Assembly (NCBI GenBank): GCA_937127125.1
Contig: CAKZLO010000011.1
Coordinates: forward strand, 1 to 64,000
DNA length: 64,000 nt
Reading direction: 5' to 3'
From: an uncultured Ardenticatenia bacterium
Lineage (GTDB): Bacteria > Chloroflexota > Anaerolineae > 4572-78 > NAK82
The translations under genes and the position numbers were made by a program. The first letter of the stretch is position 1; the number at the start of each line of letters is the position of its first letter. Under the pieces are notes generated by a model that had not been told where the DNA came from, did not search any database, and saw only the letters and a program-made list of their open reading frames with translations. Shown in pieces: positions 51,777-59,169 of the stretch.

Positions 51777-53162
51777 ATGATAAAAAGAAGACAGTGGCGT
51801 TGGATACTTGCTTGGCTGGTATTGGGTGGCCTGATATGCAGTAGCACGTACGCGCCAACAATCGCACAGAGCGCAACACCTTCCCCCACTCCTACTGTGA
51901 CGCCCTATCCGACGTACACACCCTACCCGACCTACACGCCGTACCCTACCTATACGCCCTACCCGACATACACCCAGTATCCTACCAACACTCCGTACCC
52001 GACGTATACGCCTTACCCCACCTACACGGTGTACTTCACGCCAACACCTAGTGCGACAGCAACTCCCAGCGCCACTCCTACCGCAACACCTACCGACACG
52101 CCTACGCCTACCCCGGCGCTTCCTTTGGTCACTGCACTGGTTGATGTGAACGTGCGCAGCGGACCGGGCGTCGACTATCCACGCATCGGTGCACTACTGA
52201 AAGGCGAGACCGCCCAAGTGACTGGTCGCAGCCCTGATATGTTGTGGTGGCAGATTGTTTACCCGATCGGGTCTGCTCAAGGGCGAGGCTGGGTTTCTGC
52301 TAGGCCACAATACACCAGCGCGGTGAATGTTGAGAATGTGCCTATGGTGTTGCCGCCTCCTCCACCGCCTACCGCTACACCTACACCTACTCATACCTCA
52401 ACACCTCAGCTGGAACCACCCATCATTTTCAGCTTCTGGGCAGACCGTTACACAATCACCCGTGGCGAGAAAGTGACATTGTATTGGGACCTCGCTAACG
52501 CTGAAGCAGCCTATTTGCGTTACGACGATAAGGAAAGAGGAGTTGTGGCGCCCGGCAGCATCACGTTGTCGCCCAAAGAGACCACCCTGTATACGCTGCG
52601 CGCATACAATGCTGCCGGCGAAACAATCCGTCAGCTGATCGTCACCGTTGTTCCTCCCGCACCCACCGAGGTTGTGCTGGACTTGATCTCAGCAGCCCCC
52701 TTAGCATCCTGGACGAGCAATCTGGGCAGCACAGCGTTGGCGTGGGGCGTGCTGGACGAGATACTCGGCTACGCTATCTGGCGAGACAACCCAGAACTGG
52801 AGGATGGCAGCCGGCCTACCCGCGTCCTCGAGACCAGACCTCGCGCTGCACCGAATGGTGACATTGCCGGGCAATTCTGGCTGCCTCAACCCATTCGTCC
52901 CGGCGACCGCTTTCGAGCACAGGTCGGCTTCCTGGCCGGATCCATTGGCAACGTGCGCTTCGTAGTTGCCACAGGCGATTCACTGGCGACAGCGACGATA
53001 ATGAGCACAGTAGCGGACAACGCCCGTGATGGTATATTGCGCACCATTGACATCGATCTGAGCAGAGTAGCCGACAGCAACTTCATCTGGATCGGGGTGC
53101 TGGCAGATGAACCTGGTGGCGGTAAGGGCGCGGTGTGGATCAACGCACGCATAGAAAGATGA
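51777..53162 (+). CDS. Secreted protein with proline-threonine-tyrosine repeats and an SH3-like domain
   Basis: A signal peptide ([20 protein letters not shown] ... AQS) is followed by seven PYPTYT-type hexapeptides (residues 43-84) and a Thr/Pro/Ser stretch. An SH3b domain, residues about 117-175, has [17 protein letters not shown] and WWQIVYP-x9-GWVSA. A second Pro/Thr linker precedes an immunoglobulin-like region ([21 protein letters not shown]). The last 170 residues ([37 protein letters not shown]) look like a beta domain of unknown type. It probably binds or spans the cell envelope. Similar low-complexity repeats are frequent in Chloroflexota. A weak TATACT box lies near 51703. Confidence 0.85.
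51903..52028 (+). repeat. Seven tandem 18-bp coding repeats (PYPTYT)
   Basis: Seven units of 18 bases encode (P/Q)YPT(Y/N)T. Third-codon positions vary between units (TAT/TAC, CCC/CCG/CCT), so the peptide and not the DNA is conserved. This points to selection on the protein repeat. Confidence 0.9.
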
Positions 53163-54281: not shown

Positions 54282-54554
54282 ATGTGGATGATTGTTCTTT
54301 TCTTCGTTGTAGGAATATTATTGGGACGTCTGCTGAGCATCCATCAACTGCTAATTCGTGTAGCCGACCAGTTAGCGATGGCAAGCGTCTTGCTACTCCT
54401 GTTTGTACTAGGGCTTTCGGTGGGCCTCAATCACGAAGTTCTAGCACACTTCGGCACATTGGGGTTGCAAGCTGTCATCTTGACACTCGGTGCCATAGCC
54501 GGTAGCGTGACAGCCGTCCAACTTCTCAACTTGAACCCGACGAAGAAGCAATGA
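54282..54554 (+). CDS. LysO-type lysine exporter, N-terminal part encoded as a separate gene
   Basis: About 90 residues with three hydrophobic segments: VLFFVVGILLGRLL at the start, VLLLLFVLGLSVGLN and VILTLGAIAGSVTAVQLL. This matches the first part of LysO (DUF340), which in E. coli is fused to the larger part. The stop overlaps the start of the next gene (ATGA), so the two halves are made together. AAGGAG lies 15 bases upstream of the ATG, which is far. The role in lysine export comes from the family. Confidence 0.85.
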   Translation: MWMIVLFFVVGILLGRLLSIHQLLIRVADQLAMASVLLLLFVLGLSVGLNHEVLAHFGTLGLQAVILTLGAIAGSVTAVQLLNLNPTKKQ

Positions 54555-55156
54555 GAAACAGCCTCGTCATCTTGGGGTGTTTCTTGGCAGGCATTCTGGC
54601 AGGGCGCCTGCTGCCCTCGTCTGTCTCGTTGACACCAGATCATTACACTCTGTACGTTCTGTGTGCCTTATTGTTGTTTGTCGGCATTGGTGTCGGTGGA
54701 GACGCCCACTTCTGGCAGGCAATGCGCCAACGGGACAACTTGCGACTCGCCCTGTTACCCCTCCTGGTAGTTATTGGTACGCTTGTCGGTAGTGCAATAG
54801 TAGCGCTGTTGTTGCCTCAAATGACGCTACGCGACGCATTAGCTGTCGGTGCTGGCTTCGGTTACTATAGCCTCTCCAGCGTACTGCTCACTCAGACACG
54901 GGGCGAGACGTTAGGCGTGATCGCTTTGCTCGCCAACCTGACGCGCGAAATCGCCACGTTGGTGCTCGCGCCACTCTTGGTGCGCTTCTTCGGCAGATTG
55001 GCGCCCATTGCATGCGGGGGTGCCACTGCTATGGATTCCACCTTGCCAATCATTGTTCGTTTCTCCGGGAAGGAGTATTCCATTGCTGCCTTGTTCAGTG
55101 GCATCGTGCTTACTGCTGCAGTGCCTTTCCTGATCTTCCTCATCCTGAACGCTTGA
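54551..55156 (+). CDS. LysO-type lysine exporter, C-terminal part
   Basis: About 201 residues, hydrophobic throughout, with roughly six membrane segments. It shows FLAGILAGRLLPSS, VGAGFGYYSLSSVLLTQ, LGVIALLANLTREIATLVLAPLL and GGATAMDSTLPIIVRFSG, all conserved in LysO. It would pair with the 90-residue protein before it to form the exporter. The coupling through an ATGA overlap and the lack of any frameshift signature show a genuine two-gene form and not a broken gene. Confidence 0.9.
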   Translation: MRNSLVILGCFLAGILAGRLLPSSVSLTPDHYTLYVLCALLLFVGIGVGGDAHFWQAMRQRDNLRLALLPLLVVIGTLVGSAIVALLLPQMTLRDALAVGAGFGYYSLSSVLLTQTRGETLGVIALLANLTREIATLVLAPLLVRFFGRLAPIACGGATAMDSTLPIIVRFSGKEYSIAALFSGIVLTAAVPFLIFLILNA

Positions 55157-55221: not shown

Positions 55222-56982
55222 TCAGCTTTCCACAGTGAATTCACCTGAAGCGCGCAAGTTTCCCTCAACGTAGATTTCCACGTGGTAGTGCCCAGGCAGC
55301 AGACCGAAGAGCGTGTGCTCTACAGGCTTTTTCACCGCCAGCTGCTCGCAACGACCACTCGCGCCACCACGCCACGTCAGCACCTGATCGTAAAAGGGTC
55401 TTTCTGCACCATTATGATATACCTTAAGCACTACTTGCTCGCCTTCAGCCATACCCTGATAGTCGAACAACACCATAACCTGTCCTGTAAGCGCTGGGAA
55501 GCGGTCGCTGATCTGATAGGTAACCACCTTGCCATCGTGTTCCATTGCGGGCACGCCGAAGGCGAGATTGCTGAGTTGAGCGCGGGTTGTGCCCGGGTAG
55601 GGCTTGCCACGATACCGCAGTGAAACGAACGCTTCCTTGAGCAACAAAGTGCTCTCCTGCAGCCCGGCATGCGGTCGCACCACCTGTAATCGCTCTACAT
55701 TGCGGATCATCTGACGGAAATAGTAGGGGTCTGAGCTGAGCGGGTGTGCTGCGGCATAATCGATTGCTTTACGAATTTCTGCCAGACCTTCTTGGAGCCT
55801 GCCCATACCCATAAGGATTTCACCCAACACGAGACGCGCCCCGAATTCTTTCATAGGAGACAAATTGATGACCTGCTGGATAGCCTCCAGTGCTAGCTCG
55901 TGCTCGCCTAAAAGGTAGAACGACCAGCTCAAATTCCAAAGGACATGGTAGTTGTCTGGATCCATCTCCAGCGCCTTACGATAATTGGCCACTGCCTGGC
56001 GGAAAGAGGCATCGCGCAAAGCTGGATCGCCTTCGCCGAACAGCAACGCCTCTCCTTTAACTGTGTAAGCATCGCCGCGCGTAATGTAGGCAGCAGTGTA
56101 ATCAAGACGCAATGCTATAGCACGATCTAGCTCAGTAATAGCTTGATCCGCTTTCTCAGGCGCCAGATAGTATTGTGATTGTAGTTCCTCTTGAAGTGCA
56201 TATATGGCCTTAACATGACCGGCGACGTATGCCTCTAATGCCTCTGGGACAACGTGAGGAAGGGGTTGCACGAAGGTCAACCCTGTCCACACGATGATAA
56301 AACTCAAATTGGTACTGCCCAGCGCCATAAATCCCCATTTCAGATAACGCTCCACGGTCAATGCCAAGCCGTAGAGAAACAGTGTCACTGCCACCAAAGT
56401 GATGATAGTCTGATACGCATTGCTCTTCTGCCCCCATGCGCGTGCCAACCCCATCTGCACCGCCTGTTGCTCACCAAGTAACAGTCGCGGCGCCACCACC
56501 TGCTCAAACCAATAGCGATTCACATCAGGCCATAACCCTGTCACAGTGTCGAAGTAAGGCGAAACGAACAGATCGCTCTGATCAGCGAGCATCTTAGAGG
56601 CCTCTATCAGCCGCTTAGCCTCTTGAGAGTACCTTGCTGCCTGCGTAGGGTCGAGTTCCATGTTGGCCATCATCCTGGCTGTCAATGCCAAGTGTTGCTG
56701 TTCCCACCATGTGCGGGCGATCTGGAGATCATATCCGACTTCGAACAGGTTGCTTACGTCGAGCTGGAGTGCTTGTAAAGCCTGCGCTTGCGCCTCACGG
56801 TTTGCCTGGCTCGCCCGCATATTCGCGTCGGTCTGCAATGCAGCTACGATTGTCCCAAAGACAGCTGCTCCAGCAATGAGCATAATAATGAGATGATTAG
56901 GATTCCAGGAGGAACGAGTGTCCTTACGTTCTCCGATGGGAGAGCATGGGACTGCTTCATCAGTATATTGCGCGTCCGCCAT
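55222..56982 (-). CDS. Membrane protein with TPR repeats and a C-terminal beta domain
   Basis: About 586 residues; no named family recognised. There is a membrane helix near 30-48, then an outer helical region of about 150 residues. Two more membrane helices follow (TIITLVAVTLFLYGLALTVERYL near 205-227, then the next 20). TPR-like pairs lie at about 270-400 (AITELDRAIALRLDYTAAYITRGDAY; NYRKALEMDPDNYHVLWNLSWSFYLLGEHELALEAIQQVI). The last 130 residues are a beta-rich domain (GQVMVLFDYQGMAEGEQVVLKVYHNG). The three-helix membrane module resembles that of the FHA protein 57 bases upstream on the same strand. The ATG at 56982 is preferred over the TTG at 56988. Confidence 0.82.
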   Translation of the reverse strand: MADAQYTDEAVPCSPIGERKDTRSSWNPNHLIIMLIAGAAVFGTIVAALQTDANMRASQANREAQAQALQALQLDVSNLFEVGYDLQIARTWWEQQHLALTARMMANMELDPTQAARYSQEAKRLIEASKMLADQSDLFVSPYFDTVTGLWPDVNRYWFEQVVAPRLLLGEQQAVQMGLARAWGQKSNAYQTIITLVAVTLFLYGLALTVERYLKWGFMALGSTNLSFIIVWTGLTFVQPLPHVVPEALEAYVAGHVKAIYALQEELQSQYYLAPEKADQAITELDRAIALRLDYTAAYITRGDAYTVKGEALLFGEGDPALRDASFRQAVANYRKALEMDPDNYHVLWNLSWSFYLLGEHELALEAIQQVINLSPMKEFGARLVLGEILMGMGRLQEGLAEIRKAIDYAAAHPLSSDPYYFRQMIRNVERLQVVRPHAGLQESTLLLKEAFVSLRYRGKPYPGTTRAQLSNLAFGVPAMEHDGKVVTYQISDRFPALTGQVMVLFDYQGMAEGEQVVLKVYHNGAERPFYDQVLTWRGGASGRCEQLAVKKPVEHTLFGLLPGHYHVEIYVEGNLRASGEFTVES

Positions 56983-57045
56983 ACTCAAATCGTCCTGCTC
57001 AAATGCTCATAGCGAACCGAGTTCTTGTATGTTTACTGACTATGC

Positions 57046-58017
57046 TCAGATCGCGCCTGCGAAGAGCTCAATCCAAGCTGTTGCCAGAGTGCCCAGGCCG
57101 AACATAACCACACCCATTGCTGCCAGAAGGTACTTTCGTCGCGTCTCCGCCAGGGTAGCTCCAGTGTAGAAAAATATAGAGAGGCTCAATAGCACAGCTA
57201 TGATGGTCAAGCGTTGCGCAACCACTGCCGCGCGGTCCGATTCGCGAAAGTGCGCTTGATAGTCCAAATCCTCCAGTGCGGCCGCTTCTGCCAGATTTGT
57301 ATCCACAAAGCGTACCTGCTCGAAGCTCTGCTCTGCGACGTTCTCTGCGCGATGCAGATAGTCCTGGTCAACCAAGTCCAGAGCTGCCAACGCCATATTC
57401 GCATGTTGAAGGCGTTCGTTCTCCAGAAAATCAACGAGTGTCGTGTCCTCAGTGGTAGCTAATGTTTCGTTTAGCAACTTCACCATAGCCAGATGCCAAC
57501 GGTAAGAAGCAAATGCCCCCAGATTCTGGTACAAGCTCGACGCAATCTCGCTGCGATATCGGCTCAAGTGGATCAGCACGCTGGTGCCACTACTACGGGC
57601 ACTCACTGCGTCGTCCGTAGCCACATTGGCACGCCAGGCCGTCAATGCGCCCACTAATGTGGACAAGGCTATCAGGATGGCAATAATGTTGCGGAAACGC
57701 TGTCCACTTTCCATTTCTTCGTAGGTGAACAATGTGTTGCCCAGTCGAATCCGATCACCTACACGTAAACGGTAACTCGTGGTCAGTAGCGCACCGTTGA
57801 CGTAGGTGCCGTTGGTGGAACCAAGGTCGCGAATGATCCAAGCGTCCGCGCCACCGGTTTCCGAGACACAGGTGATCTCAGCGTGGCGACGGGATACTAG
57901 TGGATCGTTAATGGGAATGGTGCGCGCCTGCTCACGCCCCAGATGAATCACCTCGGCATCCAGCGGATACTCTGTCCGCTCGCCGGTTTGCTTTACCAAC
58001 TTCACTCGCGGTTGCAT
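57046..58017 (-). CDS. FHA-domain membrane protein
   Basis: Residues 20-100 form an FHA domain, which binds phosphothreonine peptides. The key residues are present: GREQARTIPIND, VSRRHAEI and GSTNGTYVNG. A helix near 112-130 enters the membrane. An outer helical region of about 130 residues follows, then two membrane helices (LTIIAVLLSLSIFFYTGATL and LLAAMGVVMFGLGTLATAWI). The FHA domain would face the cytoplasm. No Ser/Thr kinase is encoded in this window. It sits between the RfaE1-like kinase gene and the TPR membrane protein, all on the minus strand. About 323 residues. Confidence 0.88.
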   Translation of the reverse strand: MQPRVKLVKQTGERTEYPLDAEVIHLGREQARTIPINDPLVSRRHAEITCVSETGGADAWIIRDLGSTNGTYVNGALLTTSYRLRVGDRIRLGNTLFTYEEMESGQRFRNIIAILIALSTLVGALTAWRANVATDDAVSARSSGTSVLIHLSRYRSEIASSLYQNLGAFASYRWHLAMVKLLNETLATTEDTTLVDFLENERLQHANMALAALDLVDQDYLHRAENVAEQSFEQVRFVDTNLAEAAALEDLDYQAHFRESDRAAVVAQRLTIIAVLLSLSIFFYTGATLAETRRKYLLAAMGVVMFGLGTLATAWIELFAGAI

Positions 58018-58092: not shown

Positions 58093-59169
58093 TCAGCGCG
58101 ACAATCCTGGCACATAGGTATCATAGGCAGCTAAGATCTCCTCTGGCGATGCGGTACCAGTAGTGCGCAATTTGCGGACGGTCACCGCGGCAGCTAGTGA
58201 GGCCAGCCAACCAGCTTCCCAGGGAGAAGCACCAGCAGCTAATGCCGTTGCCAGCGCCGCCAAAAAAGTATCACCAGCACCCACTGTATCAATAGGCGGG
58301 GCAACAGGCATTGCCGGGATATGGGCGTATCCCTCTGCTGCACACAGCAGCGCACCCTGCTCACCACAGGTGATATAGACCGGACGGCCTGTGGCCGCCT
58401 GGGCACGCAACCCGGCTTCAACCAATTGCTGCTGGGTTACCTCATCCGGCCGCCGTCCTGGAAACCACATTTGAGTCGCCTCTATTTCATTGGGTTTGAT
58501 CACCATTGCCTGGAACTGGCCAATATTATCGCGCGAATCAGCAGCAAAGATTACACTCGGATACATCTGTGCCATTCGGTTGAGTGCCTCAACCACCCGT
58601 GTTGGTACAACGCCCACAGGCTGGTAATCTGCTACGATTACAGTATCCAATTCCGGCAAATGGGTGGCAACTTGCTCGAGCAATGCGTCGAGCACACTAT
58701 CAGGCAAGGGATGCGTGTTGACAAAATCCACACGAGCATCTTCTTGCTGATTATCGTAGCCCATCAGGATCACCTTACCGTAGAAGGGAGTTACCCAGTC
58801 CGAGGCATGGGTTATCACCGCTTCCAGGCGCAAGCCAGCAGCGCCCAACACTTGGCGCAGCAACAGGCCACGCCAATCATCACCAAGCACAGCAAAAGCC
58901 CATGTCTCGTGTGGCTGCAAGGCGGCCACATTTACGGCAACATTGGCGCAGCCGCCAGCAGAGTAGGTTTCGCGCACCACGGGGCGGTTGTACAGAGGTG
59001 CCTCGCGCGAGAGCTGTGCGCGCATCATGTCCACGTACCAGTAACCATCCAAGGTGAAATCGCCCACGATGCCGACGCGCACCCTGCGAATCGCTTCCAG
59101 AAGCGCTTGTAGACGTGTGCGGCTCAGCATTGGGAATGTGTCATCGCTCGTTCGATCTTTGTGATGCAC
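58093..59169 (-). CDS. PfkB-family carbohydrate kinase, RfaE1-like
   Basis: About 358 residues, similar to the kinase half of RfaE/HldE, which phosphorylates D-glycero-D-manno-heptose 7-phosphate. It shows RVGIVGDFTLDGYWYVD, SREAPLYNRPVVRETYSAGGCANVAVNVAAL, a phosphate-site IKPNEIEATQMWFPG and the catalytic PPIDTVGAGDTFLAALATAL. A cell without an ordinary LPS would more likely use another sugar, so the substrate is open. The start is GTG at 59169, with AGGAGG 10 bases upstream. It is probably the first gene of a run with the FHA and TPR proteins. Confidence 0.88.
   Translation of the reverse strand: MHHKDRTSDDTFPMLSRTRLQALLEAIRRVRVGIVGDFTLDGYWYVDMMRAQLSREAPLYNRPVVRETYSAGGCANVAVNVAALQPHETWAFAVLGDDWRGLLLRQVLGAAGLRLEAVITHASDWVTPFYGKVILMGYDNQQEDARVDFVNTHPLPDSVLDALLEQVATHLPELDTVIVADYQPVGVVPTRVVEALNRMAQMYPSVIFAADSRDNIGQFQAMVIKPNEIEATQMWFPGRRPDEVTQQQLVEAGLRAQAATGRPVYITCGEQGALLCAAEGYAHIPAMPVAPPIDTVGAGDTFLAALATALAAGASPWEAGWLASLAAAVTVRKLRTTGTASPEEILAAYDTYVPGLSR

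Follow-up and report, generated by a model that had tools for sequence, protein, structure and literature searches.

Two adjacent genes of an uncultured Ardenticatenia bacterium encode membrane proteins that look alike within the membrane and differ elsewhere, one carrying an FHA domain and the other TPRs. This raises the question of whether the two membrane parts have a common origin, on which side of the membrane the other domains lie and what such a pair could do. Both genes belong to the window, i.e., the whole stretch of 64,000 nucleotides that was analysed, located on contig C11 of a Chloroflexota genome of 3.7 Mb in 85 contigs. Ardenticatenia bacterium isolate Nak82, the nearest named relative, belongs to the same genus as this genome. 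The gene of the FHA protein (323 aa) is hereafter called m1 and that of the TPR protein (588 aa) m2, and the same names are used for their products and relatives. The features are the following:

57046..58017, minus strand: m1, protein of 323 aa with FHA domain and three-helix membrane module (open reading frame; FHA E 4.2e-20; relatives in 13/199 genomes of the class)
57706..58017, minus strand: FHA domain of m1, residues 1-104, predicted cytoplasmic (Pfam FHA at residues 25-93; aligns to solved FHA domains)
57634..57690, minus strand: TM1 of m1, residues 110-128 (hydropathy; AlphaFold helix starting at module residue 2)
57169..57225, minus strand: TM2 of m1, residues 265-283 (hydropathy, AlphaFold)
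57070..57126, minus strand: TM3 of m1, residues 298-316 (hydropathy, AlphaFold)
55222..56988, minus strand: m2, protein of 588 aa with three-helix membrane module, TPR and beta-sandwich (open reading frame; TPR families above cut-off; relatives always adjoin m1)
56836..56892, minus strand: TM1 of m2, residues 33-51 (hydropathy; AlphaFold helix 30-109)
56353..56409, minus strand: TM2 of m2, residues 194-212 (hydropathy; AlphaFold helix 156-211)
56275..56331, minus strand: TM3 of m2, about residues 220-238 (AlphaFold helix 215-240)
55609..56247, minus strand: TPR-type helical region of m2, residues 248-460, predicted extracytoplasmic (Pfam TPR in 319-378 and around; AlphaFold helices; Foldseek matches to consensus TPR)
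55231..55563, minus strand: C-terminal beta-sandwich-like domain of m2, residues 476-586, predicted extracytoplasmic (AlphaFold strands 476-586; no Pfam family)
58093..59169, minus strand: PfkB/RfaE1-like sugar kinase, upstream of the pair (PfkB E 1.3e-26; TIGR02198 148.7 bits, below the cut-off of 345)

As listed, m2 starts with TTG, and its third codon is ATG. Hydropathy misses its TM3 in the window copy, where the value falls short of the threshold, and detects it in the sister species.

It should be emphasized that the two sequences by themselves prove no homology, since direct BLASTP of m1 against m2 gives E 0.55 and aligns only the TII-x5-FFY/FLYG patch. The comparison of profiles, built from the own relatives of each module (alignment A1 for m1, 16 rows; A2 for m2, 17 rows), leads to a match over 195 columns (Prob 98.6, E 9.6e-16). 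The controls fail to reproduce it: E is 0.021 when either profile is reversed, 0.0027-0.16 in ten block-shuffles and 0.11 against a DUF4337 profile, which shares the topology. Furthermore, the m1 profile matches many m2 proteins outside its alignment (down to about 5e-15), the m2 profile matches m1 proteins outside its own (down to about 5e-14) and, at 22 further loci, each of the two profiles mostly finds the proteins of the other member. These profile matches indicate that residues 105-323 of m1 and residues 25-264 of m2 are homologous. The relation between the two membrane regions, which an earlier sequence-only reading of the window had proposed from a similar helix pattern, is thereby borne out. 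The description of the module given by that reading also holds, each module being made of one helix, a helical loop of about 133 residues (mean, m1 and m2 alike) and two closing helices. The helix order is identical in the AlphaFold models of the two modules (m1 module: mean pLDDT 91, helices 2-84, 88-110, 130-144, 149-185 and 190-218; m2: pLDDT 84, helices 30-109, 114-130, 156-211 and 215-240, then TPR helices and C-terminal strands).

No family of Pfam or NCBIfam covers the three-helix module, and Pfam has no family on m1 after the FHA domain, nor on the membrane or beta parts of m2. DUF4337 (PF14235) resembles the module in having one helix, a long helical loop and two closing helices. Ranked by the number of members matched, it comes first among Pfam families for the m2 module (6 of 17 members, best E 3e-4) and second for the m1 module (3 of 16 members, best E 0.0064), with no member above the gathering score among those listed and no match of the window proteins at E<=10. 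As a parent family, DUF4337 was rejected, hhalign giving Prob 2.5-3 and E 0.015-0.018 over 20-25 columns, with a shallow alignment (7 Chloroflexota rows) that makes a remote relation possible. A literature search on DUF4337 yielded only two incidental mentions. SLATT_1 (NF033634), weakly matched by 4 of 22 m1 modules (best E 0.0012), was also rejected (window m1: E 0.065, 13.2 bits versus a cut-off of 41). None of the PADLOC defence models matches the window pair, and only generic TPR models match a second pair of the same genome (see below). Matches of the m1 module to solved structures were set aside as generic long helices (Foldseek best E 0.05, low TM-scores), and its sequence matches to a pterin enzyme (E 2e-4, 80 helical columns) are apparently compositional chance matches.

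The FHA scaffold proteins FhaB/FipA and GarA/OdhI share with m1 an FHA domain with intact motifs, whereas the membrane module of m1 is unrelated to them and its partner gene is different. The best NCBIfam match of m1 is FhaB_Rv0019c, which concerns the FHA domain only (66.9 bits, well under the equivalog cut-off of 125). In the PknG-GlnX/OdhI system, TPR and FHA parts belong to one signalling route, as they could in m1-m2, but the TPR is there carried by a cytoplasmic kinase, whereas m1 and m2 bear these parts on paired membrane proteins, in a unit without kinase (PMC8546545). No paper describing such a pair was found in the open-access literature, a search outside which most subscription papers fall. 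The paired module represents a family without earlier description; the domains and the general layout (a membrane-held TPR, an FHA reader) are of already known kinds.

The two genes are neighbours well beyond the window, as the earlier reading had supposed. At all the loci where both can be read (42/42, overlaps between the two genome collections counted in), m1 directly precedes m2 and has the same orientation. Three other loci fall outside this count, two of them at a contig edge (L059, L100) and one where m2 around the module does not form one readable frame (L118). The genes mostly overlap or are separated by no more than about 30 bp, an arrangement to be expected if the translation of partner proteins is coupled; the gap is wider, 57-66 bp, where m1 bears an FHA domain.

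Searches of the class genomes with the FHA domain included mostly returned other FHA proteins and were repeated with the modules alone. Among 199 genomes of the class, relatives of m1 were found in 13 and matches of m2 in 15, including a false one in G052; this match and that of G369 correspond to flippase-like and RodA/FtsW-like proteins. The pair itself occurs in 14 of the 199 genomes, two of which harbour a second pair, and this patchy distribution implies a dispensable function. It was not found in other genera of the window's family. Profile searches identified pairs in genomes from other classes of Chloroflexota (G247, G314, G327 and G362). Two peptide patterns, run against 84,980 species genomes and able to detect close relatives only, found full-length relatives solely in Chloroflexota; their matches beyond this phylum span the TPR part alone. 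The three-helix module, although without a named Pfam or NCBIfam family, thus belongs to a pair that spans several Chloroflexota classes and is never separated.

In a tree of 78 modules, every m1 is separated from every m2 by a branch supported 100/100. According to this tree, m1 and m2 are the products of a single ancient duplication and have been inherited as a unit. The duplication claimed by the sequence-only reading is therefore right as to the fact and wrong as to its date and place, the split running across the phylum instead of arising locally. The window genome itself holds a second, FHA-free pair (L044, contig C20, 105587-106946), about 70% different from the window pair in both members. 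Downstream of it lies a gene for a secreted-looking protein of 598 aa without Pfam match, also present in the sister genome (L046, L092).

Whereas the modules are constant, the domains attached to them are not. The FHA domain is found on m1 in 3/3 species of the window's genus and on no other m1 examined, those outside the genus being bare modules of about 220 residues. The FHA domain is a genus-level addition, and the idea that it belongs to the plan of the system does not hold. In the window it scores 72.4 bits (cut-off 20.7), and its phosphothreonine-site motifs are intact: GRE (27), SRRHA (42) and GSTNGTYVNG (66). On the other side of the pair, the window m2 reaches 38.6 bits with TPR_11 (cut-off 26.8) and also matches other TPR families, and Foldseek aligns its TPR region with consensus TPR structures (target TM 0.83-0.87). 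The m2 of G027, G011:C18 and G404 is a bare module without TPR, while those of G166, G011:C51, G004, G247 and G314 have a longer C-terminus. The persistence of both members without any extra domain marks the module pair as the core, onto which TPR, FHA and other domains were added. This provides a clear case of a regulatory domain acquired, within a single genus, by one partner of a long-standing heteromer-like pair, and close relatives with and without FHA allow testing the effect of phospho-signalling added to an existing membrane complex.

The topology can be predicted from charges. Across 43 m1 and 44 m2 proteins, the loop between TM2 and TM3 contains 0.23 (m1) and 0.26 (m2) Lys+Arg per residue, versus about 0.04-0.08 after TM3. 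The module would thus most likely have its N-terminus inside, the large helical loop outside and its C-terminus outside, and for m1 this prediction agrees with an FHA domain inside the cell. The three helices and the positive-inside counts together place the TPR and beta domains of m2 outside, opposite the FHA domain. Independent support comes from G166, where m2 has a C-terminal extension related to a domain that occurs in a window-genome protein, in the order FHA, one membrane helix, that domain; since this type of domain lies there across the membrane from an FHA domain, the m2 extension is expected to be outside as well. Against an outer TPR, it has to be counted that the positive-inside signal around TM1 of m2 is weak, its flanks failing to discriminate (2.5 Lys+Arg before, 2.4 after). 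TPR proteins are also often cytoplasmic. On balance, the large protein-binding part of m2 is probably outside the cell.

Taken together, these data lead us to favour, with slightly better than even confidence, a reading in which m1 and m2 are the subunits of an undescribed Chloroflexota membrane complex with an outer TPR platform, to which a link to threonine phosphorylation was added in the window's genus. In each module, TM1 would run into a long outer helix, followed by a helical cap and a long return helix leading into TM2, then by a short positive loop inside the cell and TM3. The m1 module would pair with the m2 module as a heteromer. The small residues of TM1 conserved in alignment A1 (A13 and A20 invariant, A9 and G40 nearly so) fit helix packing, and the strict gene coupling fits a heteromer. 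The parallel distances within m1 and within m2 (r 0.96) also speak for the complex, with the caveat that shared species history contributes to such mirroring and can produce it too. The wider gap in front of m2 where m1 bears an FHA domain and the patchy distribution of the pair count against the complex. The TPR-plus-beta platform of m2, as its TPRs suggest, may bind another protein or a peptide outside. In the window's genus, the cytoplasmic FHA domain gained by m1 would bind a threonine-phosphorylated protein, coupling the outer platform to Ser/Thr-kinase signalling, and any direction given to this signalling is putative. Considering the intact FHA motifs and the seven Ser/Thr kinase domains of the window genome, we propose that the complex would hold on to, or let go of, a phosphothreonine protein inside the cell. 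No Ser/Thr kinase domain is encoded around the pair, the nearest one on the window contig being about 27 kb away.

Other explanations give the pair a different role. The sequence-only reading saw a duplicated sensor, a common outer part of which would feed two different inner readers, FHA and TPR. The homology of the modules is in line with such a sensor, and both TPR and FHA domains frequently mediate interactions inside cells. However, three helices put the N- and C-termini across the membrane from each other, the positive-inside counts place the TPR outside and leave only the FHA inside, and the extension of m2 is of a domain type found opposite an FHA domain in the window genome. Furthermore, two readers can hardly be the plan of a system in which FHA is absent beyond one genus and TPR is absent from three pairs. 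We therefore hold this sensor to be quite improbable. We give as little credence to a role of m1 and m2 as cell-envelope chaperones or assembly helpers working like YfgM-PpiD of E. coli, where secreted proteins receive help at the Sec translocon from a TPR protein in the periplasm together with its partner in the membrane (PMC9643414). The general layout is indeed the same, with an outer TPR domain held by one of two membrane partners (PMC9643414), and several pairs adjoin genes of secreted or surface proteins. Nevertheless, these neighbours change from locus to locus; each of YfgM and PpiD has just one N-terminal helix, the outer domain of PpiD differs, and no three-helix module is common to the two pairs.

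An accessory role for an ion channel, which the pair would modulate or cluster from outside before being re-used in other lineages, appears unlikely. At three loci (L094, L095 and L096) from three families, namely those of Roseiflexaceae ES-bin-105, Anaerolineales UBA6668 and a Thermoflexales genome, the gene immediately upstream of m1 encodes a CASTOR/POLLUX-type channel (Castor_Poll_mid E 1.2e-31); it is separated from m1 by 23 and 34 bp at the UBA6668 and Thermoflexales loci, respectively. The channel is found in 8 of the 14 pair genomes of the class versus 23 of the other 185 (Fisher p 2e-4; by genus p 9e-4), statistics in which relatedness and genome size are only partly corrected, and also in 4 of 6 further pair genomes. 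On the other hand, neither the window genome nor its sister has the channel, and the three channel-adjacent pairs fall in one subclade of the tree. The association is a lead only on the core function; if it is true, the pair would be a candidate partner for bacterial CASTOR/POLLUX-type channels. A bolder version of the two-subunit complex appears distinctly unlikely: it would connect, phylum-wide, an outer platform of TPRs with the control of ion channels in many lineages; the FHA domain added in one genus would make it a phosphorylation-dependent inside-out/outside-in switch. The membrane complex with an outer platform and a genus-level phosphorylation link remains the reading that we prefer.

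Apart from m1 and m2 themselves, clustering revealed no neighbour common to the loci of the class. The RfaE1-like kinase had been thought to form one run with the pair. Among the loci compared, a close relative of it adjoins the pair solely in the sister genome, and its end is seen in the third species; it was therefore rejected as part of a conserved unit, as it adjoins the pair only in the window's genus. The sole other shared neighbourhood is that of one Anaerolineales group (L101-L111), in which the pair lies in a conserved block with genes judged by eye from their sequences to be CoA-transferase-like, hydrolase, HAD-like, EamA-like transporter and STAS-like.

Some other genes deserve mention. 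The window genome encodes another membrane-spanning FHA protein (L161, contig C35), with FHA, a single helix, an outer domain and TolB-like repeats. On the plus strand of the window, positions 51777-53162 encode a secreted-looking protein with a long repeat stretch followed by an SH3_3 domain. Between this gene and m2, a lysine exporter of the LysO family is encoded by two overlapping plus-strand genes (54282-54554 and 54551-55156; 90 and 201 aa, both PF03956), a split that is also kept in the sister genome (L045).
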